A stretch of 64,000 nt of DNA from Nocardiopsis sp. CNT312. Its GTDB lineage: Bacteria; Actinomycetota; Actinomycetes; Streptosporangiales; Streptosporangiaceae. Of this stretch, positions 2,418 to 24,188 are shown piece after piece (within the stretch, counting starts at the first letter, position 1; each line of letters begins with the position of its first letter). The stretch spans positions 62,001 to 126,000 of the forward strand of contig NZ_AZXF01000011.1 of the NCBI RefSeq assembly GCF_000515115.1. The letters run 5' to 3'. Made by a program: the position numbers and the translations under genes. Under the pieces are notes generated by a model. It did not search any database and was not told where the DNA came from. It worked only from the letters and a program-made list of their open reading frames with translations.

Positions 2418-2704
2418 TGCATTCTCCTCACATCTGCGGAATCGAACCCAGTGCCGCAGCCGACAGCAGAAACACCCCCTGAACAGGAAGTTCAAAGGAT
2501 TCTCCAGCCACAGCACGCCCGACGGCACACTTCACGGAAATCATTGCGCCATCGAATTCAAAAAATGAAAAGAGTCGTTCCACCCGGAAAATAATCCGAA
2601 CGAATAAAAAGCAATCGTATCCACCGAAGAATCGTCGGAACAAGGCGTGGGAACGAAACTGCCGGTGCGCGCGGCGAACCTGCCGCCGCGTTCCCGGCGA
2701 GCGC

Positions 2705-2740
2705 GGCGGTGCCTCCCGGCCCCACCCGGGAGGCACCGCC
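2705..2740. terminator. Terminator of spo0M
   Basis: Perfect 15-base stem (2705-2719 pairs with 2726-2740) with a 6-base loop, six bases beyond the spo0M stop codon. Strong rho-independent-like hairpin without a U-tract. Confidence 0.8.
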
Positions 2741-2746
2741 CTACGG

Positions 2747-3553
2747 TCAAGCGCCCTGGGCGGCCTTGGCGTCGAGCCACTCCCGGAACCGTCCGGTGAT
2801 CGCCTCGGGGTCGACGCTGCCGTGTTCGACACTCAGGCGCAGCGGCTCCTCCCCGCCCCCGCCAAGGAGTGCGCCCGGCTCCTTGTCGAACTCCAGTACC
2901 ACGTCCACACCCGCGTCATCGGTGAAGAAGCTCAGCTCCAGCGAGTCCAGCCCCGCGTACTGCTCCGAGGCCCCGAACACGAATTCCTGGTAGAAGGGCA
3001 GCTTCTGGCGGGCACCACTGACCTCACCCTTCTCCAGGTCGCTGCCGCGCATCTCGAATCCCAGGGCGATGAGCGCCTCCAGGACCGCGGCCTGGGCGGG
3101 CAGCGGCGTGATGCTCAGCGGGTCGACGTCCTTCCGGTCGATGGCGTTGTCCATGGCCACGCTGGTGTTGAGGCCGACGTAGTCCAGGAACCGGATGCTG
3201 TTGAACGAGGTGACCGGCGCCTCCATGGGGATGGCCAGTTCGAAGGGCAGCTCCAGCTCCTGCCCCGGCTCCAGCGTCACCACCGCCTCGCTGACGGCGT
3301 TCTTGGCGACCACCACGTCGACGTTGAGCTCGCGCTTGGACTTCTCACCTTCGAGGTTCTTGTAGGTGATGTCCTTCTCCACGGTGGCGCGCAGGCCGAC
3401 GGTGACACCTTCGACGGTCTGGGCGACCTTGCCCGCGGTGACCTTGATGGTGCCGGAGACGGTACCGCCCGGCTCGACGCGATCGCTGTCCAGCGTGGAC
3501 TCCACGGTGGCTCCGCCGATGCCGACGGTCGCGAGCATGCGCTTGAAGTTCAC
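2747..3553 (-). CDS. spo0M: Sporulation-control protein Spo0M family
   Basis: 268-residue cytosolic protein with the arrestin-like double beta-sandwich sequence of Spo0M (MNFKRMLATVGIGGATVEST at the start, VEPGGTVSGTIKV and LEPGQELELPFELAIPMEAP further on). Spo0M influences sporulation and cell division in Bacillus; in actinomycetes its role is little known. The GTG start at 3553 has GAGGAAAG about 7 bases upstream. It is a single-gene unit, closed by the hairpin at 2705-2740, with the CRISPR array behind its promoter side. Confidence 0.9.
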   Translation of the reverse strand: MNFKRMLATVGIGGATVESTLDSDRVEPGGTVSGTIKVTAGKVAQTVEGVTVGLRATVEKDITYKNLEGEKSKRELNVDVVVAKNAVSEAVVTLEPGQELELPFELAIPMEAPVTSFNSIRFLDYVGLNTSVAMDNAIDRKDVDPLSITPLPAQAAVLEALIALGFEMRGSDLEKGEVSGARQKLPFYQEFVFGASEQYAGLDSLELSFFTDDAGVDVVLEFDKEPGALLGGGGEEPLRLSVEHGSVDPEAITGRFREWLDAKAAQGA

Positions 3554-3693
3554 GAAGCTCTTTCCTCAGGCCCGTGCTGCCCCTGAGCGCCGCACGGGAC
3601 AGGGGACCGGTATGGGGGTTTTCGGGGGAAACGGGCGCTCCTCCCCAGGATGCCGTGTCGGAGACCGACAGGGAACCACCGGCGTCCCCGTCC

Positions 3694-4148
3694 GCCGTAT
3701 CCCCGCGTGCGCGGGGAGCAGGCGGGCAAGCGCATGCGCGCCCGGTGGCGCAAGGGTCCATCCCCGCGTGCGCGGGGAGCAGTGGTCAAGAAAATCCGTC
3801 CATAGCTCGGATGGAGGTCCATCCCCGCGTGCGCGGGGAGCAGCAGTCACTCGACCCGAGGTCAGCACTATATATAGGTCCATCCCCGCGTGCGCGGGGA
3901 GCAGCACCACCGCGACGTCCACCTGGGCAACGTGGTGGGTCCATCCCCGCGTGCGCGGGGAGCAGGAGTCGGGTCACCCGACGCCGGACGTATACCAAGG
4001 TCCATCCCCGCGTGCGCGGGGAGCAGGATGACGAACTGGGCCACGTCCATCGGCCCGGAGGTCCATCCCCGCGTGCGCGGGGAGCAGCCTCGGAGGCGGT
4101 CTCGTTGATGGGCAGCGGTGGGTCCATCCCCGCGTGCGCGGGGAGCAG
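3694..4148 (-). CRISPR. CRISPR array, type I-E-like, 8 repeats and 7 spacers, no cas genes nearby
   Basis: Repeats of 28 bases start at 3694, 3755, 3816, 3877, 3938, 3999, 4060 and 4121, exactly 61 bases apart, with seven 33-base spacers. Seven repeats are identical. The first on the plus strand (3694-3721) differs at positions 2-5. The repeat core CCCCGCGTGCGCGGGG is the inverted stem. Read on the minus strand the repeat begins CTGCTCCCCGCG and ends GATGGACC, matching the orientation of type I-E repeats. The degenerate terminal repeat on the left marks the old end, so the leader is on the right and transcription runs leftward. No cas1-cas2 or Cascade gene lies in the window, so function depends on cas genes elsewhere. 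Confidence 0.97.
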
Positions 4149-4259
4149 CCTTATTGACCTGGGACTTTATATCGCCAGACAGCCCGAATCTGCAAGTTGT
4201 CGAAAAACAGACACAGAGACCAAACCCCCCACAAACCACAAATAACCCACTCTACTTTC
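4149..4259 (-). promoter_or_regulatory. Candidate CRISPR leader
   Basis: This AT-richer stretch directly right of the newest repeat carries runs of A/T on one strand (ACCAAACCCCCCACAAACCA on plus, T/G-rich on minus) and lies where the leader must be if transcription runs leftward. It ends at the hairpin 4260-4286. Assignment rests on array polarity and composition, and I could not identify a clear -10/-35 pair. Confidence 0.6.
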
Positions 4260-4286
4260 GGCTGGTGCCCGTGGTGGGCACCAGCC
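4260..4286. repeat. Perfect inverted repeat bounding the CRISPR leader
   Basis: GGCTGGTGCCC and GGGCACCAGCC form an 11-base stem around a 5-base loop. It could terminate the decayed gene on its right (stop at 4297-4299, minus strand) before transcription enters the CRISPR leader. Confidence 0.6.
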
Positions 4287-4296
4287 TGGCCACCGC

Positions 4297-4421
4297 CTAC
4301 AGCCACACGAGCTCGGCACGCAACCGTCGGGCAACTCCATTCCCCAGGCGAACGCCCTCCCCTTGTGCTCGCCCCGGGTCAGTCGCAGCTCGAAGAACTC
4401 CGCGCCGGGCTCGTGGTACAC
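4297..4421 (-). pseudogene. Remnant of a small unidentified gene
   Basis: The minus strand encodes VYHEPGAEFFELRLTRGEHK followed by GRAFAWGMELPDG, which reads like a real conserved protein. Shifting one frame after PDG gives RLRAELVWL and then a TAG stop at 4297-4299. This suggests a frameshifted 3' end of a small gene. I do not recognise the family, and no convincing start or upstream part is visible up to 4568. Confidence 0.35.
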
Positions 4422-4568
4422 AGAAGTTTTCAAGAAGGAACATTCACGAAGTGAGCATGAGCCCCGAAGGGAGCATGGTATCGGCCAGATCCGGGAGGAG
4501 GCATCACGCAAGAAAAGGACTCTCCCCTGAATAAGGATGAAAGCCACGAAAGACACCATCAACAGAAC

Positions 4569-4606
4569 ACCGTGCGGCCCCGCCGGTCTCGGCGGGGCCG
4601 CACGGT
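4569..4606. terminator. Terminator of the rhamnose operon
   Basis: Perfect 16-base stem (4569-4584 with 4591-4606) around a 6-base loop, 11 bases past the rhaB stop codon. One of the strongest hairpins in the window. Confidence 0.85.
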
Positions 4607-4616
4607 GCGGGCGCGG

Positions 4617-6110
4617 TCAGGGCCAGAGGCGCTTGTGAGCCTCGTCCCAGTGCCGCGTATCGCCGGACGGTTCGTACCGGCGGGTCTCGGTGGAGGCGGC
4701 GACGATCCGGCGCAGCTCGGCCAGGTCCCCGCTGACCGCCCCCACGGCGCGGGCCTGCACCAGGATGTTGCCGATCGCGGCGCCCTCGGTCGGCCCCGCG
4801 ACGACGGGCAGCCCGGTGGCGTCCGCCGTCAACTGGCACAGCAGGGTGTTCAGCGAGCCCCCGCCGACCATGTGCACCACGTCGACCGTCTTGCCGCTGA
4901 GCTCGGCGGCCTGGTGGACGGCCCGGCGGTAGGACAGGGCCAGCGAGTCCACCACGCACCGGGCGACCTCGGCGTCGGTGGAGGGCGGGCGCTGCCCGGT
5001 CTCGGCCGCCAGCTCGGCCAGACGCGCGGGCATGTCGCCCGGCGGCAGAAAGCGCGGGTCGTTCACGTCCAGCACGCACGACAGCGCGGGCAGCCGGGCG
5101 GCGCGCTCCAGCAGGTCGGGCAGGTCCACCCCGTGCCCGCGCTCGCGCCAGGTGCGCTGGGACTCCGAGAGCACCCACAACCCCATGACGTTGCGCAGGT
5201 AGCGGACCGTGCCGTCCACGCCCAGCTCGTTGGTGAAGTTGGCGGCCCGGCTCTCCTCGGTACGCACCGGCCCGTCCAGCTCCACCCCCACCAGCGACCA
5301 CGTCCCACTGGAGATGTAGGCGAAGTTCGGGGTGGTCGCGGGCACCGCCGCCACGGCCGCGGCCGTGTCGTGGGAGCCGACGGCGACGAGCGGCGCCCCC
5401 GCGGCCGCTCCCACCGACTCCCGGCCGAGCAGCGGACCCACGACCGTCCCGGGCTCCACCAGGGGCGGCAGCAGGCCGCGCACGGGCACCCCGAACGGGC
5501 CCTCCAGCACGTCCAGGCAGGCGTCCGCCCAGGTGCGGGCGCGCACGTCGACCAGGCCCGTGGTGGAGGCGTTGGTCAGCTCGGCCGCCTTCTCCCCGGT
5601 CAGCCAGTACCCCAGCAGGTCCGGGATGAGCAGCAGGTCGCGCGCGGCGGCCAGTTGGGCGTCACCAGAGGCGGCGGCCAACTGGAACACCGTGTTGAAC
5701 GGCTGCACCTGGAGCCCGTTGACCGCGTACATCCGGGCGGCGGGCAGCCACTCGAACACGTGCTCCGGCGCACTCTCGGTACGGGCGTCCCGGTAGTTGA
5801 CCGGGTTGCCCAGGAGCGCTCCGTCGGCGTCCAGCAGGCCGTAGTCCACCGCCCAGGAGTCGATGCCCACCGAGTCGAGACGGCCGTGCGCCCCGGCGGC
5901 GCGGCGCAGCCCCGCCAAGACCCCCCGGTACAGGGACAGGATGTCCCAGTGCAGGGTGTCCCGCCCCCGGGAGGGGACGGAGACCGGGCCGTTGGGGAAG
6001 CGCGCCGCCTCCTCGGTGCGCACCCGCCCGCCCTCCAGGCGGCCGGTGATGACCCGGCCACTGGAGGCGCCGAGGTCGACCGCGGCGTGGACGGTGTGCC
6101 CCGCGCTCAT
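4617..6110 (-). CDS. rhaB: L-rhamnulokinase RhaB
   Basis: Phosphorylates L-rhamnulose to rhamnulose-1-phosphate with ATP, the second step of L-rhamnose breakdown, in the cytosol. The 497-residue protein is an FGGY-family kinase: N-terminal phosphate-binding motif DLGASSGRV, the substrate segment GIDSWAVDYGLLD, SSGTWSLVGVELD in the second half and the ATP-domain glycine motif MVGGGSLNTLLCQ. Its ATG at 6110 overlaps the rhaD stop as ATGA, so the two are translationally coupled. It is the last gene of rhaI-rhaD-rhaB, followed by the hairpin at 4569. Confidence 0.95.
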   Translation of the reverse strand: MSAGHTVHAAVDLGASSGRVITGRLEGGRVRTEEAARFPNGPVSVPSRGRDTLHWDILSLYRGVLAGLRRAAGAHGRLDSVGIDSWAVDYGLLDADGALLGNPVNYRDARTESAPEHVFEWLPAARMYAVNGLQVQPFNTVFQLAAASGDAQLAAARDLLLIPDLLGYWLTGEKAAELTNASTTGLVDVRARTWADACLDVLEGPFGVPVRGLLPPLVEPGTVVGPLLGRESVGAAAGAPLVAVGSHDTAAAVAAVPATTPNFAYISSGTWSLVGVELDGPVRTEESRAANFTNELGVDGTVRYLRNVMGLWVLSESQRTWRERGHGVDLPDLLERAARLPALSCVLDVNDPRFLPPGDMPARLAELAAETGQRPPSTDAEVARCVVDSLALSYRRAVHQAAELSGKTVDVVHMVGGGSLNTLLCQLTADATGLPVVAGPTEGAAIGNILVQARAVGAVSGDLAELRRIVAASTETRRYEPSGDTRHWDEAHKRLWP

Positions 6111-8194
6111 CGCAGGAACGCGGCGGCCACGCCGCTGTCGACGGGGATGTGCAGGCCGGTGGTGTGTGACAGCTCCCCTGCGGTCAGCGCGAACACCGCG
6201 TTGGCGACGTGCTCGGGCAGGACCTCCTTGCCCAGGAGGGTGCGCTTGGCGTAGAAGGAGCCCAGGTCCTCCTCCTTGACCCCGTACACGGCGGCGCGCT
6301 TGGCACCCCAGCCGCCGGCGAAGATGCCCGAGCCGCGGACCACGCCGTCGGGGTTGATGCCGTTGACGCGGATGCCGTCCTCGCCGAGTTCGGCGGCCAG
6401 CAGGCGGACCTGGTGGGCCTGGTCGGCCTTGACCGAGGAGTAGGCGATGTTCTTGGGGCCGGCGAACACCGCGTTCTTGGAGGAGATGTAGACGATGTCG
6501 CCGCCCATACCCTGCTCCTTCATGACCCGGGCGGCCTCGCGGGAGACGAGGAAGGAGCCCTTGGCCATGACGTCGTGCTGGAGGTCCCAGTCGCGCTCGG
6601 TGGTCTCCAGCAGCGGCTTGGAGATGGACAGTCCGGCGTTGTTGACCACCAGGTCCACCCCGCCGAAGGCCAGGGCGGCCTCGGCAAAGGCGGCGGCCAC
6701 GGCGGAGCCGTCGCTGACGTCGGCGGCCACACCCACGGCGACGTCGGACGAGCCGATCCCGGCAGCGGCCTCCCGGGCCTTGTCCGCGTCCAGGTCGGCC
6801 ACGACCACGCAGGCGCCCTCGGCGGCCAGACGGGCGGCGATGGCCTTGCCGATACCGCTGGCGGCACCGGTCACCAGGGCGACGCGGGTGGCCAGGGGCT
6901 TGGGCTTGGGCATCCGCTGGAGCTTGGCCTCCTCAAGGGACCAGTACTCGATACGGAACTTCTCCGACTCCTCGATGGGCGTGTAGGCGGAGACGGCCTC
7001 GGCGCCGCGCATCACGTTGATGGCGTTGACGTAGAACTCTCCGGCCACGCGCGCGGTCTTGGCGTCCTTGCCGAAGGAGAACATGCCCACACCCGGCACG
7101 AGCACGATCGCGGGGTCGGCGCCGCGCATGGCGGGGCTGTCCTCGGTGGCGTGGCGCTCGTAGTAGGCGCGGTAGTCGGCGCGGTACTCCTCGTGGAGCT
7201 GGCCCAGGCGCTCGACGGCCCGCTCCAGCGGGGCGTCGGCGGGCAGGTCCAGGACCATCGGGCGGACCTTGGTGCGCAGGAAGTGGTCCGGGCAGGAGGT
7301 GCCCAGCGCGGCTAGGCGCGGGTGCTCGGCACCCTCCAGGAAGTCGAGGACGACCTCGCTGTCGGTGAAGCGGCCCACCTGCGGGTGGTCGGTGGAGGCC
7401 AGGCCGCGGATGACCGGGGCCAGGGCGGCGGCGCGCTCGCGGCGCTGGGCCTCGGGCAGCGCGCCGTAGCCGGCCAGCTTGGCACCGAAGGGCTCGGGGC
7501 GGCCCTTGTCCCGGAGGAACCGCTCGGCGGTGCGGATGATCTCCAGGGAGTTGGCCTGGCACTGCTCGCTGCTCTGGCCCCAGGCAGTGATGCCGTGGCC
7601 GCCCAGGACGGCACCGATGGCCTGCGGGTTCTCCTCGGCGATCTTGGCGATGTCCAGGCCGAGCTGGAAGCCGGGACGGCGCCAGGGCACCCACACGACA
7701 CGGTCGCCGAAGCACTCCGCGGTGAGCTTCTCGCCGTCGGCTGCGGTGGCCAGGGCGATACCTGAGTCGGGGTGCAGGTGGTCCACGTGCGGAGCGCGCA
7801 CGAGGCCGTGCATGGCGGTGTCGATGGAGGGTGCCGCCCCGCCCTTGCCGAAGAGGCAGTGGTCGAAGGCGGCGACCATCTCGTCCTCGCGCTCCTCGCC
7901 CGGGTAGACGTCCACGAGGGCGTGGAGCCGGTCCAGGCGGAGCACGGCCAGGCCGTCCTCGGTGAGGGTGCCCAGATCGCCGCCGGAGCCCTTCACCCAC
8001 AGCAGGTCGACGGGCTTTCCGGTAACGGGGTCGGTCCTGGTCCCGGCGGCGGAGGTGTTGCCGCCGGCGAAGTTGGTGTTGCGCGGGTCGGCGCCCAGCG
8101 CGTTGCTGCGCTCGATGAGGTCTGCGACGACGTCGTCGGCCACGGTGCTCCCCTGTTCGGTGTGGTCGGAGTTGTGCGGAGTGCGCTCGCTCAT
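6107..8194 (-). CDS. rhaD: Bifunctional rhamnulose-1-phosphate aldolase / lactaldehyde dehydrogenase
   Basis: A fusion protein of about 695 residues. The N-terminal ~430 residues are a class II (zinc) aldolase that splits rhamnulose-1-phosphate into DHAP and L-lactaldehyde (NTNFAGGNTS, VKGSGGDLGTL). The C-terminal ~260 residues are a short-chain dehydrogenase with the Rossmann motif TGAASGIGKA and catalytic YSSVK, expected to oxidise lactaldehyde to lactate. This RhaD-ADH architecture is known in actinobacteria and some bacilli. The ATG at 8194 overlaps the rhaI stop (ATGA) and is preferred over an in-frame GTG at 8203. The stop overlaps rhaB. Confidence 0.95.
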   Translation of the reverse strand: MSERTPHNSDHTEQGSTVADDVVADLIERSNALGADPRNTNFAGGNTSAAGTRTDPVTGKPVDLLWVKGSGGDLGTLTEDGLAVLRLDRLHALVDVYPGEEREDEMVAAFDHCLFGKGGAAPSIDTAMHGLVRAPHVDHLHPDSGIALATAADGEKLTAECFGDRVVWVPWRRPGFQLGLDIAKIAEENPQAIGAVLGGHGITAWGQSSEQCQANSLEIIRTAERFLRDKGRPEPFGAKLAGYGALPEAQRRERAAALAPVIRGLASTDHPQVGRFTDSEVVLDFLEGAEHPRLAALGTSCPDHFLRTKVRPMVLDLPADAPLERAVERLGQLHEEYRADYRAYYERHATEDSPAMRGADPAIVLVPGVGMFSFGKDAKTARVAGEFYVNAINVMRGAEAVSAYTPIEESEKFRIEYWSLEEAKLQRMPKPKPLATRVALVTGAASGIGKAIAARLAAEGACVVVADLDADKAREAAAGIGSSDVAVGVAADVSDGSAVAAAFAEAALAFGGVDLVVNNAGLSISKPLLETTERDWDLQHDVMAKGSFLVSREAARVMKEQGMGGDIVYISSKNAVFAGPKNIAYSSVKADQAHQVRLLAAELGEDGIRVNGINPDGVVRGSGIFAGGWGAKRAAVYGVKEEDLGSFYAKRTLLGKEVLPEHVANAVFALTAGELSHTTGLHIPVDSGVAAAFLR

Positions 8195-9369
8195 GCGCCC
8201 CACCCGGCCTGCTGTCCGCCCCTGCGCTCGTCGATGACGCGCTCGGCGTAGCCGGAGCGGGCGTGGGCGGCCATGGGGTCGGCGTCCAGGCCGAGGGAGG
8301 CGCGCAGCTCAGCCAGCATCGGGCGCACGTCGGTGTTGTAGGCGTCCATGAGGACGGCGTTGGCGCCGAGGACGTCGCCCTCGGTCTGGGCCCGGGCGAG
8401 CGCGTCGCCATCGACGAGCAGGGCCTTGGCGGTGGCCTCCTGCACGTTCATGACGGAGCGGATCTGCCCGCCGATCTTGGGCTCGATGTTGTGGCACTGG
8501 TCGAGCATGAACGCCACCTCGGTGTCGGCGGCCAGGCCGCCGCCGCGCACGACCTCGTACATGATGCGGAACAGCTGGAAGGGGTCGGCTGCGCCGACCA
8601 TGAGGTCGTCGTCGGCGTAGAAGCGCGAGTTGAAGTCGAAGGCGCCGAGCTTCCCGGCGCGCAGCAGGAACGCGACGATGAACTCGATGTTGGTGTGGGC
8701 GGCGTGGTGGCCGGTGTCGACGCAGACCACGGCCTTCTCCCCGAGTTCGAGGCAGTGGGCGTAGGCCGTGCCCCAGTCGGGGACGTCGGTGGCGTAGAAG
8801 GCGGGTTCGAAGAGCTTGTACTCCAACAGGATGCGCTGGTCGTCGCCGAGGCGGCCGTAGACCTCGGAGAGGGCCTCGGCGAGGCGGTCCTGGCGGGCGC
8901 GCAGGTCGTCCTGGCCTGGGTAGTTGGTGCCGTCGGAGAACCACAGCTTGAGGTCGCGCGACCCGGTGGCGTCCATGACGTCGACGCACTCCAGGAGGTG
9001 GTCGACGGCCTTGCGGCGGACCTTGGGGTCGGGGTTGGTGACGCTGCCGAGCTTGTAGTCGTCGTCCTGGAAGACGTTGGAGTTGATGGTGCCGACGGCG
9101 ACGCCCAGGTCCCGCGCGTGGGCGGCGAGCGCGGAGTAGTCGTCCACCCTGTCCCAGGGGATGTGGAGGGCGACGGTGGGCGCGACGCCGGTGAGGCGGT
9201 GCACCTCGGCGGAGTCGGCGATCTTCTCCCAGGGGTCACGGGGGACACCGGGCTGTCCGAAGACCTTGAATCGGGTGCCGGAGTTGCCGAACGCCCAGGA
9301 GGGGAGCTCGATGTGCTGGCGCCGCAGGGTCTCCAGAGCGGCCGCCCGGCGGTCGGAGGGAGCTGCCAC
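8191..9369 (-). CDS. rhaI: L-rhamnose isomerase RhaI
   Basis: Converts L-rhamnose to L-rhamnulose. The 392-residue protein is of the xylose-isomerase-like TIM-barrel type (Pseudomonas stutzeri/Gram-positive RhaI subtype), with the metal-site segments LLEYKLFEPAFYATDVPDWG, CVDTGHHAAHTNIEF and FDFNSRFYADDDL. GTG at 9369 with GGAGAA six bases upstream is chosen. The frame is open further upstream to 9444, but that part carries the operator and promoter sequences. First gene of the rha operon. No rhamnose transporter, mutarotase or regulator gene is in the window. Confidence 0.94.
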   Translation of the reverse strand: MAAPSDRRAAALETLRRQHIELPSWAFGNSGTRFKVFGQPGVPRDPWEKIADSAEVHRLTGVAPTVALHIPWDRVDDYSALAAHARDLGVAVGTINSNVFQDDDYKLGSVTNPDPKVRRKAVDHLLECVDVMDATGSRDLKLWFSDGTNYPGQDDLRARQDRLAEALSEVYGRLGDDQRILLEYKLFEPAFYATDVPDWGTAYAHCLELGEKAVVCVDTGHHAAHTNIEFIVAFLLRAGKLGAFDFNSRFYADDDLMVGAADPFQLFRIMYEVVRGGGLAADTEVAFMLDQCHNIEPKIGGQIRSVMNVQEATAKALLVDGDALARAQTEGDVLGANAVLMDAYNTDVRPMLAELRASLGLDADPMAAHARSGYAERVIDERRGGQQAGWGA

Positions 9370-16929: not shown

Positions 16930-17526
16930 TCACTCCAGCAGACGGGCGAAGGCGGCGTCGACCAACGCCGGGAGGCGTTCGGGGGCTCCGCCCGCCTGCG
17001 TGCGGCCGGAGCGGTAGCAGGCGGTGGCGAGTTCGGCGGCCAGGACCGCCACGGAGCGCTCGGCGCCCAGGTCGCCGAGGGCCCTGGCCATGGCCTCGGC
17101 GTAGTCGCGTTGCTTGGTGAGCTCCCGGGCGGCCAGGTCGGGGTTCTCCGCCAGCAGGCGCTCGTGGCGCAGATAGGCTTCACGGTCCTCGGTCCGGGCG
17201 GTCGCCAGTGCGTCCACAACCCGGCGCAGGTACGCCAGCGCGGCCGACAGGGAGTCCCCGAGGGGCCGTTCCGGCGGCGGGACGAGGCGGCCGACCTCCT
17301 GGGGGCCGGGCACGCGCTGAGCGCCGAAGACCACCTCCTGCTTGTCGCCGAAGTACCGGAAGAAGGTGGCCCGGCCGACCTCGGCACGGTCGGCGATGTC
17401 GCTGACGGTGACCCGGTCGAAGCCGCGCTCGGCGAACAGGGCGAGCGCGGCGGCGACGATGCTCTCGCGCGTGCGCCGACGCTTGCGCTCACGGGGCGAC
17501 TCGGTCCGCCCCAATGGTCGTTCCAT
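16930..17526 (-). CDS. TetR/AcrR-family transcriptional regulator
   Basis: 198 residues. The N-terminal helix-turn-helix is clear: TRESIVAAALALFAERGFDR, then VSDIADRAEVGRATFFRYFG. The C-terminal ligand domain is unassigned. ATG at 17526 is preceded by TAAGAT 6 bases upstream and no ribosome site, suggesting a leaderless mRNA with autoregulation possible at that promoter. It is oriented the same way as the terpene operon to its right but separated from it by 316 bases; its target is unknown. Confidence 0.9.
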   Translation of the reverse strand: MERPLGRTESPRERKRRRTRESIVAAALALFAERGFDRVTVSDIADRAEVGRATFFRYFGDKQEVVFGAQRVPGPQEVGRLVPPPERPLGDSLSAALAYLRRVVDALATARTEDREAYLRHERLLAENPDLAARELTKQRDYAEAMARALGDLGAERSVAVLAAELATACYRSGRTQAGGAPERLPALVDAAFARLLE

Positions 17527-17842
17527 ATCACCATCTTAGGGCCGACTCTCCTACCTGGGGCGGTATCCGATTCTTCGGTCGGCTCGGAGCAGTCCGCAGG
17601 GGAACCGTCCGAAGCGCCGGGTCCCGGGCCGAGCCTTTTCCGGAACGCCGGGGAAGAGGGCTTCGCCCGGTGCCCGGGCACCCGGCTGAAGAGCATCACC
17701 GGCGTCGGCGCGCCCCATGAGGCGTGCGGCCGGTCGCGCGGGAAGCCGGGAAAGGGCGAGGGCTCGGCCGGGGCCGATGACGCGAAGGGCCGCCCACCGG
17801 CGTGGCGGGCCGCTGAACGGGTGGGCGGCCCCGGGACCGGTG
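17527..17842. other. Intergenic region, no gene seen
   Basis: 316 bases between the terpene/encapsulin gene row and the TetR gene. I see only the TetR promoter at the left end, and no hairpin strong enough to call. Confidence 0.5.
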
Positions 17843-18400
17843 TCACTCGACGCGGTCGCCCTCAGGATCCCCGGCTGCACGCACGAGCGTGTCGTAGGTG
17901 TCGCTGATGGGTTCCAAGTCCACTCCCAGGCTCCGTGCCCAGGCGGCCAACTCCCCCTGGACGGCTCGGGCGTCACGGTCGTCGTCGGCGACGATCTCCA
18001 GTTCCAGGAACACGCCGACCCTGCGGACGAGGTCGACGCAGACCAGCATCCGGTCGACCACACCCACCCTGCGGTACTTGACGATGCGCAGGCTCGGGAC
18101 ATAGCCCATCGCCAGAACGGCGGCGTGCATCTGTGCCCGGTCGGCGACGGCCGACTCGTGCTCCACACACTCCATCGGCAGTGCCGAGGGGGTCTTGGTC
18201 GTGAACACGTGCATGCCGTCCTGGGTACGCAGACGGCAGAAGGTGCGCCCCGCCCTGGGCATCCCCGGATCCCAGTCGGCGGGCGCGTAGGCCTGGTCGT
18301 CCTGGAGCACCGGCTCCCCCAGTTCGACACCCGCCCGGTCGAGGGCCTCCAGGAGGGCGTCGAGGTCCGCCACACGGTACTTGGTCTCGATCTCGCGCAT
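17843..18400 (-). CDS. CYTH-domain protein, class IV adenylate cyclase-like
   Basis: 185 residues with the CYTH tunnel-fold signature: ExExK at residues 3-7 (EIETK), a following DDQAYAP tyrosine segment, basic strand TFCRLRT, TTKTP, the acidic pair in MECVEHES, IVKYRR, and FLELEI near the end. CYTH members include class IV adenylate cyclases (CyaB), thiamine triphosphatases and tripolyphosphatases, all acting on triphosphates with divalent metals. The sequence spacing is most like CyaB, but the substrate cannot be settled from sequence. It starts 18 bases after the idi stop, so it is probably the last gene of the encapsulin/terpene operon. The ribosome site is weak. Confidence 0.8.
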   Translation of the reverse strand: MREIETKYRVADLDALLEALDRAGVELGEPVLQDDQAYAPADWDPGMPRAGRTFCRLRTQDGMHVFTTKTPSALPMECVEHESAVADRAQMHAAVLAMGYVPSLRIVKYRRVGVVDRMLVCVDLVRRVGVFLELEIVADDDRDARAVQGELAAWARSLGVDLEPISDTYDTLVRAAGDPEGDRVE

Positions 18401-18418
18401 CGGTCGGCCCGGAGTGCC

Positions 18419-19006
18419 CTACCAGGACCCGCCGACGAGTTCGCGCACCGCGGGCCGCACGGCGTCCAGAACCGTCGGAAACCACACCGAGAACGTGTGC
18501 TGGGCCATCATCTGCTCCAGCCTGGCGGGGTCGGCGAACACGGTTTCGGCGATCTCTTCGGGATCGGGCTTCAGATCGCCGCGCCCCATCCCCACGAAGA
18601 GGTGGTTGTACTCCTGCTCGACCAGTTCGGAGTCGGGGTCGCGGTGGTGGTAGCGCACCGTTCCAGCGGCACGCATGAGGTCGGGTGCCGTGCCCAGCTC
18701 CTCGGCCACGCGCCGGGCCGCGGCGGCGAAGGGCTCCTCCCCGGGGTAGGGGTGGCCGCAGCAGGTGTTGGACCACACCCCGGGCGAGTGGTACTTGCCC
18801 AGGGCACGGCGCTGGAGGAGCATCCTGCCCTCGGCGTCGAAGAGGAAGACCGAGAAGGCCCGGTGCAGTTGCCCCGGCGCCCGGTGGGCGGACAGTTTCT
18901 CGGCGGTGCCGATGGTGGCACCGTCCTCGTCGACCAATTCGAGCATGATCGGTGCGTCGGCTCGGTCCGCGGAGGCGGCGCGGGCGGCGACGGAACTGGT
19001 GGACAT
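18419..19006 (-). CDS. idi: Isopentenyl-diphosphate delta-isomerase, type I
   Basis: Interconverts IPP and DMAPP, supplying the starter for geranyl diphosphate. 195 residues with the Nudix-like IDI fold: LHRAFSVFLFDAEGRMLLQR, the catalytic cysteine in WSNTCCGHPYPGE, RRVAEELG, and the catalytic glutamate in LVEQEYNHLFVG. ATG at 19006 has GAAGG six bases upstream and is preferred to the ATG at 19012. It lies 89 bases after the methyltransferase gene in the same direction, so it likely boosts precursor flow to 2-methylisoborneol. Confidence 0.95.
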   Translation of the reverse strand: MSTSSVAARAASADRADAPIMLELVDEDGATIGTAEKLSAHRAPGQLHRAFSVFLFDAEGRMLLQRRALGKYHSPGVWSNTCCGHPYPGEEPFAAAARRVAEELGTAPDLMRAAGTVRYHHRDPDSELVEQEYNHLFVGMGRGDLKPDPEEIAETVFADPARLEQMMAQHTFSVWFPTVLDAVRPAVRELVGGSW

Positions 19007-19095
19007 GGGCATCCTTCGCGGTAGGGGCCTGGGCACGCTGCGGTCAGGGGCGGGGTGCCCGCCGCAGCGGCGGCGGGCACCCGGGACCGGCCGGA

Positions 19096-19956
19096 TCAGA
19101 TCCGGTCGGCGGCGATGAGCAGGTAGTGGAAGCTGCCCTCCTTGTAGGCGGTCAGGAACGGGTCCTCGATACCGGTCGCCACCGAGGACTGGGCGCGCAG
19201 CTCCCAGTACGGGATCGTCTGGTCCGTGAGGTCGACGACGTTGATCGGGACGAGACCGTTGGCTGCCATCGCCCTGAAGTAGGCGCTGCGCGGGTGGATG
19301 TTGCAGGTGTAGTGCTCGTCGATGCGGCTGACCGCCTTGGACCGACCGCCGGTCACGTCGTTGTAGCAGCCGGTGATGGTGACGTAGCGCCCCCCGTGCC
19401 GGAGCAGGCGGGCGTGCTCGCTGAAGAGTTCGAACAGGTCCACGTACATGGTCGACTCGTTGTTCCAACTGGCCCGCAGCGAACCGGTGTCGAACCCGGT
19501 GTCCAGCATATTGCGGAAGTGGAAGGCGACCTTGTCGGAGACGCCGCGCTCCTCGGCCTGGCCGTTGGCGAAGTCCACCTGCTGCTGGGAGATGCTCACC
19601 CCGTCCACATGGCAGCCGAAGCGCTGGTGGGCCATGAAGCTGGTGCCGCCCCGGCCGGACCCGGTGTCCATGATGCGGTCCTCGGGCCGGATGTTGCCGA
19701 GGTGGTCCAGGAGTACGTCCGCCTGGGCCGTCTCCAGGCGGTGCAGTTCCTCGATGATGCGCTGGTCGCGGGTCTCCTCCGGCCCCTCCAGGACGGAGGG
19801 GTCGTAGTCGCCGAGGCCGTAGTGGTGGTGGTAGTAGCCGTCGACCTCACCGAGGCGGATGTTGACGGGGTCCTTCTCGGCGTTCCAGTACTCGGCCACG
19901 GAGCGCTGGTAGTCGGTGCGCAGGACGTGGTCGGCCTGGGGCATGGTGGACGTCAT
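19096..19956 (-). CDS. Geranyl diphosphate 2-C-methyltransferase
   Basis: Adds a methyl group from S-adenosylmethionine to C2 of geranyl diphosphate, giving 2-methyl-GPP, the substrate of 2-methylisoborneol synthase. 286 residues, close to known GPPMTs (~290). SAM motif I is MDTGSGRGGTSFMAHQRFG; VSISQQQVDFANGQAEERGV and WNNESTMYVDLFELFSEHAR are typical of the family. ATG at 19956 with AAGGAG about 10 bases upstream. It lies 55 bases downstream of the synthase gene, the usual pairing. Confidence 0.95.
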   Translation of the reverse strand: MTSTMPQADHVLRTDYQRSVAEYWNAEKDPVNIRLGEVDGYYHHHYGLGDYDPSVLEGPEETRDQRIIEELHRLETAQADVLLDHLGNIRPEDRIMDTGSGRGGTSFMAHQRFGCHVDGVSISQQQVDFANGQAEERGVSDKVAFHFRNMLDTGFDTGSLRASWNNESTMYVDLFELFSEHARLLRHGGRYVTITGCYNDVTGGRSKAVSRIDEHYTCNIHPRSAYFRAMAANGLVPINVVDLTDQTIPYWELRAQSSVATGIEDPFLTAYKEGSFHYLLIAADRI

Positions 19957-20011
19957 GTAGGGGTGGCTCCTTCGTGTTCGGCTTACCGGGTTGCGAGGGG
20001 AAGCGGGGCCC

Positions 20012-21346
20012 TCAGGTGTCGTTGTTCGTTTGGTGGTACCGGCCGCTCTGGGCGTGCCACTCGCGGCTGCCACCGATCCAGGCCCACAGGTCGGCCAGGA
20101 AGCGGCGCAGCTCGGGCGAGCCGGCCGTGGCGAGGGCGAAGGCCTCCGCCTCGATGGTGTGCATCACCTCGTCGTGGATCTCGACGGTCCGTGCGACGGC
20201 GTCGCTGAGGGAGAGGTCCTCCTCCGAGGCGATGAGTCTGGGCAGGCTGAAGTCGCCGGGGTCCTCCTTGCCCATGGAGTACAGGTCGTTGACGATCACG
20301 CTGGCCGTGCCGGCCATGGTGAACACGCGGCGTACACGCGGGTCGGCGAACTCCTCCTGGGAGATCTCGTAGCCGGCGATGGTGTCCACCAGCACCATGC
20401 AGGGCACGAAGCTGTTCTCGTGCCGGTGCATGAGGAACTCCCAGACCGGCGGCCGCTGGCCGGCCGTCGCCCAGACCGCCTCCTGGTTGTAGGCGACGAA
20501 CATGATCGCCAGTTCGTGGCGCAGGCGCCGCACCTGCGCGGAGGTGGCCAGGGCGGACAGGTTGCGCAGCGCCGAGCGCAGGGCGACCGCGACCGGGTCG
20601 GCCCGCACTTCCTCCTCCAGTTGCGGGGCGTAGTCGAGCGGAAGGTGGGCCTGGTCGATGACGGAGTGGGCGATGGCCAGGCGCTGGCCGAGCAGTTCGG
20701 GGCGGGCCTCCTCCACCTCGCCGTCGACGTAGTGGTCGTCCACCGCCCACTCCGACAGCGCGCACTTGGCCGCCGCCAGCAGGCGGTCGGGGTTGTCGGT
20801 GGCGGGGTGGGCGAGCATCATGAGCCGTCCGAACTCGGCCCTGCGGATCTTGTCCAGTTGCCCGGGGTAGATCCCCACCTCCTCGGCCCACTCCACCAGC
20901 CGTGCGTCGACCTCCCGGCCCAGGGCCGGGTCGTCCCGGACGGCGGGCGGGCAGTACAGCACCAGGTCGGTCCGGCCGTCCCCCCGTTTGCCGGGGTGCT
21001 CGGCAACCCGGGCCCGGGCCTTCGGGCCGCCGTCGGAGGACGGCAGCCGTGGGCCGGAGGGGGCCGGTGGAACGGGGGGGAGCACCACGGCCGCGGGGGC
21101 GCCCCCTGCCGTGTCCGCTGTGGGTGGACGCTCGGGGAGCAGGGCCGTGGCCGCCGCGCTGCCGAGCCCTCGCGGGCCGGTCGGCAGCCGGGTGGCCGCG
21201 GCCGCCTCCCCGGTACCCGCGGGGGCGGGCCGGGGTGCGAGCAGGTCGGATCGGCCGGGCCGCTGCGGGTCGCGCAACAGCACGTCCACCAGGTCCGCCG
21301 CCGTGTGGGTGGCGGCGGAGGCCGACATCCGGGACAGCAGTGACAC
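20012..21346 (-). CDS. 2-methylisoborneol synthase (class I terpene synthase)
   Basis: Cyclises 2-methyl-GPP to the earthy odorant 2-methylisoborneol. 444 residues. The catalytic domain (from ~125) has the Mg-binding acidic motif DDHYVD at 203-208 and the NSE motif NDLYSMGKE with Asn353, Ser357 and Glu361. The first ~125 residues are Ala/Pro/Gly-rich and predicted disordered; in Streptomyces the equivalent extension carries the signal for loading into the family 2B encapsulin shell. GTG at 21346 has AAGGAGG upstream. It begins 35 bases after the encapsulin gene. Confidence 0.95.
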   Translation of the reverse strand: MSLLSRMSASAATHTAADLVDVLLRDPQRPGRSDLLAPRPAPAGTGEAAAATRLPTGPRGLGSAAATALLPERPPTADTAGGAPAAVVLPPVPPAPSGPRLPSSDGGPKARARVAEHPGKRGDGRTDLVLYCPPAVRDDPALGREVDARLVEWAEEVGIYPGQLDKIRRAEFGRLMMLAHPATDNPDRLLAAAKCALSEWAVDDHYVDGEVEEARPELLGQRLAIAHSVIDQAHLPLDYAPQLEEEVRADPVAVALRSALRNLSALATSAQVRRLRHELAIMFVAYNQEAVWATAGQRPPVWEFLMHRHENSFVPCMVLVDTIAGYEISQEEFADPRVRRVFTMAGTASVIVNDLYSMGKEDPGDFSLPRLIASEEDLSLSDAVARTVEIHDEVMHTIEAEAFALATAGSPELRRFLADLWAWIGGSREWHAQSGRYHQTNNDT

Positions 21347-21381
21347 CGTCTCAGTCCTCCTTCCCTGTCTGCGGCGGGCGG

Positions 21382-22788
21382 TCAGCCACGCGGGTGGACC
21401 TCGACGTTCTCCAGGACACCGAGGGCGTCCGGGACGAGCACCGCGGCGGAGTAGTAGGTGCTGACCAGGTAGGAGATGATGCCCTTGTCGTCGATGCCCA
21501 TGAAGCGCGCGTTCAGGCCGGGCTCGACCTCGTCGGGCAGGCCGGTCTGGTGCAGGCCGATGACGCCCTCGTTGTCCTCACCGGTACGCACGGCGATGAT
21601 CGACGAGGTCTGGTGGTCGGAGATCGGGATCTTGCCGCAGGGCAGGATCGGCACCCCGCGCCAGGAGGGCACCTGGTTGCCGTTGAAGTCGATGGTCGGG
21701 ATGTTGAGACCCCGGCTGTTGCACTCCTTACCGAAGGCGGCGATGGCCCGCGGGTGGGCGTAGAGGAACTGGGTGTTGCGCCGCATCGTCAGCAGGTCGT
21801 CGATGTCGTCGGGGCTGGGCGGGCCGTTGTGGGTCTGGATGCGCTGTTTGAAGTCGCAGTTGTTGAGCAGGCCGAAGTCGGCGTTGTTGACGAGCTCGTA
21901 CTCCTGGCGCTCGCGCAGGGCCTGGATGGTCAGGCGGAGCTGGTGCTCCGTCTGGTTCATCGGCTTGTTGTAGAGGTCGGCGACGCGGCTGTGCACCTTG
22001 AGGACGGTCTGGGCGACGCTGAGTTCGTACTCGCGGGGCCGGAGCTCGTAGTCGGCGAAGGTGGTGGGCAGGTCGGGCTCGCCCTCGTGGCCGGAGGCCA
22101 GCGCGATCTCGGCCTCGCCGTGGGAGTTCTGCCGCTGCTGGGGCAGGCTCTGGACCCGGGTGATCTGGGTCTGGAGGCTGGGTGACTCGTCCACCAGGGA
22201 GATGAACCGCTCCCGGGGCAGTTCGAGGAGCGTTCCGGCGGTGGCCGCCTTGACCGTGTACTCCCACGTGGGCTCGCCGGAGTCGAGGAGGTGGCGCTCA
22301 CCGAACTTGTCGCCGTCGGCCAGGATGCCGAGCCGGTTGGTCTCCCCGTAGTGGCCCTGGGAGGTCTGGTGCACCCGGCCGTGCGCGAGGAGGTAGAGGT
22401 GTGTGGCCGGCGCGCCCTGCTGGGCGAGCACGTCCCCGGGTTCGAACTCGCGCTGGACGAAGCGGTCGGCGAGGGCCTCCAGGACCTCCTCGTCGTCGTA
22501 GCCCCGCAGCAGGGACAGCTCGGCGAGTTCCTGGGGGATGACCCGGACGTGCGAGCCGGTCTGGTTGAACTCGATCCGCCCGTCGCCGATGGTGTAGGTC
22601 AGGCGCCGGTTGACCCGGTAGGCGCCGCCGTCGGTCTGCACCCACGGAAGCGTCTTCTGGACCCAGCGGGAACTGATCCCCTGCATCTGCGGGGCGGACT
22701 TGGTGGTGGTGGCCAGGTTGCGCGCCGCCCTGGTGGCGAGGCTGCGCTGCTCTTCGGTCCGCACCTCGGGGACTGAGTCGATCGACAT
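21382..22788 (-). CDS. eshA: Family 2B encapsulin shell protein (EshA-like)
   Basis: 468 residues, as for EshA of Streptomyces (~470). Sequence outside ~85-205 matches the HK97-fold shell of family 2 encapsulins (N-terminal arm [21 protein letters not shown]-terminal [20 protein letters not shown] and [19 protein letters not shown]). Residues ~85-205 are a cyclic-nucleotide-binding-like domain ([20 protein letters not shown], then DKFGERHLL at 161-168). FGE is kept but Trp175 stands where the phosphate-binding arginine is normally found. It is first in the operon with 2-methylisoborneol synthase, its probable cargo. ATG at 22788 has GAGGAGAG about 9 bases upstream. Confidence 0.95.
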
Positions 22789-23324
22789 CCGCGGTGTCTC
22801 TCCTCGTGGTTTTCGCGAACCCGTCCGCAGGCCGTGCCGCGGGCGGGTCTCCGCTGGGTCGTGTGCAGTGGGGCACCCGGGCCGAACAGCACGTCGACCT
22901 TCGGGCACGCTCCGTAAACCGAGGAACACACTAAAAGGGCCGCCTTGACCGCACAACCGATTCTCGGATTTCCCTTACGTCCACGAAGCGGGAGCCCCCG
23001 ACCGAAGAGCCCTAATACCGGGAAATGCGAATGACACTCCACCTTCCTCACACACGCCACCGGCCACAGGAATCGGCCTCCACCTGCATAGACTCTCGAA
23101 TCCATGGAAGGAAGAGACACACTCACACCTCACCCAAAAGTCCGATTCGCCCTTTATTTCATGACATTCTTCCCCGCACCCAAGAGAGCATCCCACCGAT
23201 TTAAGATCACCACTCCCCCACCATTCCGGACCCACAGAACTCCAGGAGAAAAACTCACATAAACGACATCTCATCCGGCCACACAGGATCGACCGCCAGG
23301 CGGACCGCCCAACCGAGAGCAAAA
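22789..23324. other. Long AT-richer region upstream of the encapsulin operon
   Basis: 536 bases without a credible gene. From about 22905 the composition falls to roughly half GC, far below the flanking genes, with strand-biased C/A tracts on plus. It must contain the encapsulin promoter, and its length leaves room for developmental regulator sites. No open frame here shows actinomycete codon use. Confidence 0.6.
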
Positions 23325-23343
23325 TTTGGTTAGCCCAACCTCA
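23325..23343 (+). promoter_or_regulatory. Iron box (DtxR/IdeR/DmdR-type operator)
   Basis: TTTGGTTAGCCCAACCTCA matches the 19-base actinobacterial iron-repressor consensus TTAGGNTAGNCTAACCTAA at all but about three positions and is a good inverted repeat. It stands just before the decayed siderophore-interacting protein gene, a classic iron-regulated target. Confidence 0.65.
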
Positions 23344-23386
23344 CCGTGCAACCGACCGCAGCCCTGTCCCCTGGCAGAGTCCCCCC

Positions 23387-23990
23387 GTGCAGACCCGCCG
23401 GCCCGAGCAGCGCGCGCTGATCCGCGCCCGTGCGGTGCGCGCCACGACCAGTGCGTGCGCCTCCCCCTGCCCCGAGGGGTCCAGGATGAGCTCCACATGC
23501 CCCTTCCGCCGGAAGCAGAGGCTGGTACGTGCAGCTCCTGGCCGTGTCCACGGCCAAGCGCCCGCCCGTGCGCAACGACACGGTGCGGCGCTTCGACGCC
23601 GACAGGCCGGAGACGGACACCGGGCCCCTCGGCCACGGCGACGCCGGCGCGGCCTCCGCCTGGGCCACCGCGGCACAGCCGGACTCCGGATCGGACCCCC
23701 GACCGAGGGGTCTGCTACCTGCCCGCGGCAGGGGCGGCTTGACGGCTCATCATCGCGGACGGGAGCGGGCTGCCCGCCGCGGCCTCGATCCTGGGTCAGG
23801 CCCCCGAGGACCTGCGCGCCGAGGTCTGCCCGGAGGTTCCCGCCAGGGCCGACGCGCGGAGACCGTCGGCCCCCAAGGCATGGCAGCGCACGGGCTGCCC
23901 CGGAAGGACACCCGCACCGGCCCCGGACGTCTGGCCCTGGAGACCGTCCGTGCCGCCGGGACGCCGAGCGCCGTCCCGGCCGGCATCCGG
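23387..23990 (+). pseudogene. Decayed siderophore-interacting protein (ferric-siderophore reductase) gene
   Basis: One frame reads VRNDTVRRFDADRPETDTGP, then LGHGDAGAASAWATAAQP, matching the FAD-binding core of siderophore-interacting proteins (family pattern YTVRRFDxxxxELDxDFVLHGDxGPASxWA). After a stop and frame change, LIIADGSGLPAAASILGQAP matches the family's NAD-binding segment (LLAGDETALPAI). The pieces lie in different frames, the usual RxYT tyrosine is lost, and no intact frame spans them. An iron box precedes it. Ends are approximate. Confidence 0.6.
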
Positions 23991-24188
23991 GCCAGGGGGC
24001 GATGTGCCGCACATCCGGCATGTACACCCTAATTCTGTATGTGGGACGAATCAGAAGCATGGTCCGCCCTGTGGAAGGCCCCGGGCAAACCGGATCGCCT
24101 GCCCCGCCGGGTTCTCCGGGATCCCCGCGACGGCGCGCACACCTCGGTGAACCGCACCGGCAGGCCCACCGGTGCGACCATCGGAGAC

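Follow-up and report, generated by a model that had tools for sequence, protein, structure and literature searches.

An isopentenyl-diphosphate isomerase of separate lineage and a clade-specific CYTH gene in what is very probably the Nocardiopsis form of the Family 2B encapsulin/2-methylisoborneol operon

Why should a row of genes for an encapsulin shell, a terpene cyclase and a methyltransferase also carry genes for an isopentenyl-diphosphate isomerase (Idi) and a CYTH protein? The question is raised by a stretch of 64,000 nucleotides from Nocardiopsis sp. CNT312 (contig NZ_AZXF01000011.1, positions 62,001 to 126,000; this whole stretch is called the window), in which five such genes, all on the minus strand, occupy positions 17843-22788. 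Very probably, these genes make up the Nocardiopsis version of an operon already known, that of Family 2B encapsulins and 2-methylisoborneol (2-MIB), with Idi belonging to the module and CYTH being an addition specific to one clade.

The gene order given in the initial annotation of this DNA, five genes in one direction separated, from shell to CYTH, by 35, 55, 89 and 18 bases, agrees with the coordinates and with the family models (Table 1); the third gap shrinks to 83 bases if Idi starts at the in-frame ATG at 19012, which makes the gene 6 bases longer than a start at 19006. Its assignment of the row to Family 2B and to 2-MIB was upheld too, the models NF041163, NF041167 and NF041943 being matched over their cut-offs by shell, cyclase and geranyl diphosphate 2-C-methyltransferase (GPPMT); together, the three make up the encapsulin/2-MIB operon already known. 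Among solved chains the shell protein was closest to 9bhu (676 bits), with 9bje and 9bix the other closest chains, and it is predicted to assemble around cargo. The cyclase aligned with the 2-MIB synthase 3v1x at 182 bits and with 4zq8 at 204 bits; its product would be 2-MIB.

Two overlapping samples were used for comparison. A shell scan of genome contigs gave 71 shell loci (L numbers), 25 with GPPMT; the other sample was made of 40 genomes of the genus (G numbers), 28 with a high-scoring GPPMT. Identical places in both are G019 = L003, G028 = L004, G029 = L002 and G037 = L016. Of the 71 loci, 21 from the Nocardiopsis clade had shell, cyclase and GPPMT together, with Idi next to them in 19 of these 21; thus, the arrangement of the row is not random. 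These same 19 are the only loci with Idi among the 25 GPPMT-bearing shell loci; the two misses within the clade are L003, where the contig ends just past GPPMT, and L016. Furthermore, Idi was located within 2.5 kb of GPPMT, on the same strand, in 26 of the 28 GPPMT-bearing genus genomes. Judged by gene neighborhood, Idi is a regular fourth gene and a part of the module in the genus. In fact, the presence of Idi in such an operon is already in print: Family 2B operons with 2-MIB-synthase-like cyclases and C-methyltransferases are described as enriched in isopentenyl pyrophosphate isomerases (Andreas and Giessen 2021, PMC8346489, used here in excerpt). The initial annotation had called idi and CYTH the least expected members of the row and had proposed looking for both in related loci; the comparison removes the surprise for idi and leaves it for CYTH, which is unusual and, as a neighbor of the operon, confined to a clade of four species and to 4 of the 28.

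The solid new point is that the Idi of the row belongs to a dedicated lineage and that a second Idi lineage is found in the same slot elsewhere. In a tree of 36 Idis, 13 GPPMT-linked and 18 housekeeping-type rows were split at 100/100, with very long branches; the TIGR02150 scores were 95-123 bits for GPPMT-linked Idis versus 146-158 bits for the other main group. The window Idi shares the TIGR02150 family with the housekeeping type 1 Idi of the genus but is separated from it by this deep split, its identity to the 18 housekeeping-type Idis being 34-44%. It is the single type 1 match in its own genome (4.68 Mb, 62 contigs), where no type 2 Idi was found either. The housekeeping Idi is absent from the assemblies of 5 of the 28 GPPMT-bearing genus genomes, the window genome included, and 23 keep both types; the 12 genus genomes without GPPMT have the housekeeping Idi in 10 cases and the linked type in 2 (G027 and G033).

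The second lineage was seen in G340, from another genus of the family. Its locus L173 (G340:C364:41000-56321, 2451-9080) lines up genes for two shells, a polyprenyl synthase, a cyclase, GPPMT and Idi; across the split, this Idi sorts with the housekeeping Idis, with support of 96/58 at its nearest join. By its place in the tree, either an Idi was recruited to this position a second time, independently, or one Idi was replaced there by another. The G340 row is also more complete, from precursor to odorant, than the window row. We compared 341 genomes of the family by eye (matched genomes within the genus: 28 for GPPMT, 30 for CYTH); among the matches listed, at least one genome outside the genus, G340, had Idi beside GPPMT, and in other non-genus genomes with both genes the two were not adjacent. 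A third Idi type (∼102 bits), which branches on the same side of the tree as the linked Idis, was observed at G016:C8:26968-27435 and G035:C37:39882-40349 (L177, L178); in L177 it lies directly 3′ of a phytanoyl-CoA dioxygenase-family gene.

Idi interconverts isopentenyl diphosphate (IPP) and dimethylallyl diphosphate (DMAPP) and no more than that, and IspH of the methylerythritol phosphate (MEP) pathway is present in the window genome; the claim that Idi supplies the isoprenoid starter was overstated. The notion of a self-contained pathway is likewise not supported, as there is no geranyl diphosphate (GPP) synthase within the row and the MEP pathway is in the cell. Precursors would come from that pathway and from an unlinked GPP synthase; the dedicated Idi would adjust the balance of IPP and DMAPP, one of each going into GPP, to let GPP be made alongside the odorant. 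GPPMT would then methylate GPP in the cytosol, and the cyclase, which its N-terminal GPxGLG(T/S) motif would direct into the shell, would convert 2-methyl-GPP there into 2-MIB. As to CYTH, the common ancestor of four species would have acquired it in a single event, 3′ of Idi, after which the gene stayed intact; most likely it is a phosphohydrolase of inorganic triphosphate (PPPi) or of some other triphosphate. The dedicated Idi lineage here and an Idi of the other lineage at the corresponding position in another genus together suggest a limiting role of the IPP:DMAPP ratio in the making of encapsulated monoterpenoids.

The published cargo motif, consensus GPTGLGT, sits in a disordered cyclase N-terminus and is regarded as a possible targeting sequence (PMC8346489, same excerpt). 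Along with the cyclase domain, the window protein has such a motif, GPRGLGSA at residue 57. Among 26 cyclases scanned, a loose pattern was matched in 19 and a strict one in 9; the loose match in L007 falls off the aligned place, and cyclases of L003, L005, L016-L019 and L068 had no loose match. Neither pattern was found in 26 shells, 26 GPPMTs, 20 Idis or 3 CYTHs. Since the cyclase is the only one of the five proteins to carry the motif, isomerization and methylation probably take place outside the shell; the cyclase alone is likely to be cargo, and the proposal that the whole pathway is compartmentalized goes too far. Idi was also considered as cargo and rejected, its N-terminal extension being short and variable, besides having no motif. 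Another N-terminal block, MSLLSRMSA ... LLRDPxRPG, occurs in most Nocardiopsis-clade cyclases (21346-21245 in the window) and is absent from the four outside cyclases; it is a possible second targeting element.

Turning to CYTH, we saw that the window protein belongs to the CYTH/triphosphate tunnel (TTM) family by its PF01928 score, tunnel residues and fold. Residues E3, E5 and K7, which we take to be the ExExK start motif, are invariant together with further charged residues in 37 CYTH rows, with 47 invariant positions overall. The barrel fold and the invariant acidic and basic residues are shared with Saci TTM (7ns9), ygiF (5a60) and a class IV adenylyl cyclase (3n10); the window CYTH differs from them in sequence (∼20-23% identity over the structural alignment) and in its linkage to an encapsulin operon in one clade. 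The model of class IV adenylate cyclases (CyaB), TIGR00318, gave 32.7 bits, below its cut-off of 57.95. Pairwise dN/dS of 0.25-0.46 among the operon CYTHs and the 47 invariant positions show a protein kept functional; they are silent on any role in 2-MIB formation. No residues peculiar to the four operon CYTHs were reported. The window genome has a second CYTH class as well, at G000:C13:230021-230527 (43.7 bits).

CYTH stands beside Idi in 4 of the 28 genus GPPMT loci: the window, L002 (G029), L004 (G028) and G019 (L003), where a contig break separates Idi and CYTH, which share a contig, from the GPPMT at a different contig's end. When six frames of the 71 shell loci were searched with a profile built on 37 CYTHs, only L002 and L004 matched up to an E-value of 10; CYTH as a general encapsulin partner was, therefore, rejected for the loci examined. 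No further CYTH adjoining GPPMT was seen by eye in the 341 family genomes. In G033, a genome without 2-MIB GPPMT, a CYTH gene and a pair of Family 2B shell genes are ∼1.8 kb apart (L146, G033:C11, 2905-8624); the CYTHs closest to this one in the tree (L137, L139, L141, L165) had no shell gene in the fetched stretches. Strong homologues (58-75% identity over the length) were found in 30 of the 40 genus genomes, at scattered places, and a weak one in a 31st; at an E-value of 1e-20, 72 of the 341 family genomes had a match, the 30 included. The four operon CYTHs form one clade (100/96 among 37 rows), and so do the shell and GPPMT sequences of their loci (100/99); a single gain of CYTH would, thus, suffice. 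In the shell and GPPMT tree, L015 (record Glycomyces fuscus TRM 49117) falls within Nocardiopsis and is possibly mislabeled. Over 36 fetched CYTH places and the window, some of the stretches being cut by contig ends, no recurrent neighbor telling of function was found; no neighbor cluster occurred in more than five loci, and the sole five-locus cluster was the shell itself. Among the neighbors were genes presumably coding for a NUDIX hydrolase, a glyoxalase-like protein and a sodium:alanine symporter.

How could CYTH have come to stand beside Idi? We lean, with some reserve, toward plain synteny in a young clade, CYTH having an unrelated cellular role. One gain in four species agrees with this, as does the family being widespread in scattered contexts; also, since some of the neighbors on both sides are common to the clade, the linkage may be no more than inherited order, although the same strand, the gaps of ∼13-18 bases in the window and L002 and the purifying selection on an intact gene speak for something closer. 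It is rather doubtful that CYTH helps the pathway by hydrolyzing pyrophosphate or a related phosphate released in prenyl transfer and cyclization, thus relieving product inhibition. Plant TTM1/2 do have pyrophosphatase activity; however, genomes of the genus that lack GPPMT also have CYTH relatives, the contexts of these are scattered, and in other species the operon works without a linked CYTH. Far less probable still is a loop in which CYTH is a class IV adenylyl cyclase whose product, cAMP or a different cyclic nucleotide, arises near the shell, binds the shell domain and gates the pores. The CyaB score was below cut-off, the window genome also has a class III cyclase domain, and 24 of the 28 GPPMT-bearing genus genomes have the row GPPMT without linked CYTH. 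The arginine of the phosphate-binding cassette has a role in cyclic-nucleotide binding; in the column of the cGMP-kinase arginine the window shell has T, shells of L002, L003 and L004 have N, and R was read by eye in 2 of the 26 shells listed (L008, L012), both without CYTH. Besides, the cyclic-nucleotide-like domain of Family 2B shells is stated to have been shown not to bind cyclic nucleotides (PMC12407261, in excerpt). One could speculate, against similarly long odds, that CYTH turns a triphosphate into some other small ligand, not necessarily cAMP, which binds the orphan domain over the pores and controls entry of 2-methyl-GPP; if true, a Family 2B encapsulin domain would have its first ligand, and with the clade-specific CYTH the idea of a locally made ligand can be put to a concrete test. 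The initial annotation had made CYTH the nucleotide-handling enzyme of the pathway; none of the present results connects its activity with that pathway. The likeliest view of CYTH is that of a triphosphatase-type enzyme carried along with the operon; it is probably a passenger or a phosphohydrolase.

A different question is whether the five genes share a transcript. The short gaps would suit one message; still, this is not assured, because the GPPMT-idi gap has a GC-rich hairpin, perfect stems of at least 10 bp being present there in 14 of 20 loci versus 4 of 20 for the cyclase-GPPMT gap. Folding beat shuffled sequences (P<0.05) in 14 and 10 of the 20 loci, respectively; hairpins are common in the gaps of these loci generally. 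It is possible, though less likely than not, that there are two units: shell, cyclase and GPPMT, ended or attenuated at the hairpin, and a separate idi-CYTH unit also serving the whole cell. Such a split would agree with the hairpin counts and with the linked Idi being the sole Idi found in the window genome, which is one of the five without the housekeeping type; on the other hand, both types are kept in 23 genomes, the window gap has no T-run terminator and no reported promoter, and its folding as a whole is unexceptional (z of −1.03 and −1.26 in two runs). In the CYTH-bearing L002 and L004 the perfect stems of this gap have only 7 and 6 bp. The hairpin may end transcription despite having no U tail, attenuate it or stabilize the upstream message; its recurrence suggests that shell and cargo genes may differ from precursor genes in expression level.

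The hairpin, in speaking against one simple five-gene transcript, is one of several points that weigh against the row as a Nocardiopsis form of the 2-MIB operon with Idi as a member. No linked Idi was found on the same contig in 2 of the 28 genomes, G019 (contig break) and G037 (true absence), nor was Idi present in any of the four GPPMT-bearing shell loci outside the Nocardiopsis clade, and G027 and G033 have the linked type without GPPMT. Linked Idis of L004 (13845-14431) and L009 (13765-14336) look frameshifted, each split over two frames, and appear to be pseudogenes or sequencing errors. The cargo motif is degenerate or missing in the Nocardiopsis cyclases L016-L019 and L068. Finally, because the window cyclase scores slightly higher on 4zq8 than on 2-MIB synthase, its product could be a sister monoterpenoid.

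Table 1. Genes and transcription-related signals of the row, in window coordinates
Feature	Position	Strand	Details
Stable fold directly 3′ of CYTH	17765..17842	-	−45.4 kcal/mol; z −2.57; 2/200 shuffles as stable
CYTH/triphosphate tunnel protein	17843..18400	-	185 aa; PF01928 43.3 bits (cut-off 23.2)
Type 1 Idi, GPPMT-linked lineage	18419..19012	-	TIGR02150 119.3 bits (cut-off 105.8); NF002995 198.4 (cut-off 127)
Perfect 13-bp GC-rich hairpin, GPPMT-idi gap	19053..19082	-	no T run
GPPMT	19096..19956	-	NF041943 543.5 bits (cut-off 400)
2-MIB-synthase-like terpene cyclase, probable cargo	20012..21346	-	NF041167 (family 2 encapsulin cargo terpene cyclase) 525.6 bits (cut-off 400); disordered-looking N-terminus
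Family 2B encapsulin shell with inserted cyclic-nucleotide-binding-like domain	21382..22788	-	468 aa; NF041163 (encap_f2b) 744.9 bits (cut-off 400); PF19307; PF00027
Conserved block 5′ of shell gene	22911..22956	-	TTGTGC, 17 bases, TAGTGT, then CGGTTTACGG; promoter-like by eye

The block upstream of the shell gene is largely conserved in the consensus of 20 aligned upstream regions; a strict sigma-70 consensus scan of 17500-24100 reported no promoter. The fold 3′ of CYTH is a possible transcript end, with no T-run terminator reported there. Past CYTH a gene for a TetR-type regulator (17526-16930) is followed by a GH6 cellulase gene; past the shell gene, the single PF19307 match of the genome, a molybdopterin oxidoreductase is encoded ∼1.25 kb away on the opposite strand.

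No paper on an encapsulin together with CYTH was found in the open-licence full text of PubMed Central, and the main text of PMC8346489, as excerpted, has no mention of Nocardiopsis or adenylate; a Nocardiopsis isolate has been reported to release 2-MIB (PMC7482974, in excerpt). The 2-MIB genes of Streptomyces and cyanobacteria resemble the window row in bringing together a cyclic-nucleotide-binding-like protein, a methyltransferase and 2-MIB synthase; unlike the window row, they come with no mention of Idi or CYTH in the literature listing used. The operons of PMC8346489, as excerpted, have in common with the window row a shell with a cyclic-nucleotide-binding-like insertion, a 2-MIB-synthase-like cyclase with GPxGLG(T/S), a C-methyltransferase and enrichment of Idi. 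The window row differs from them in an Idi fixed as a separate lineage, an appended CYTH gene, a single shell gene and a conserved hairpin between GPPMT and idi.

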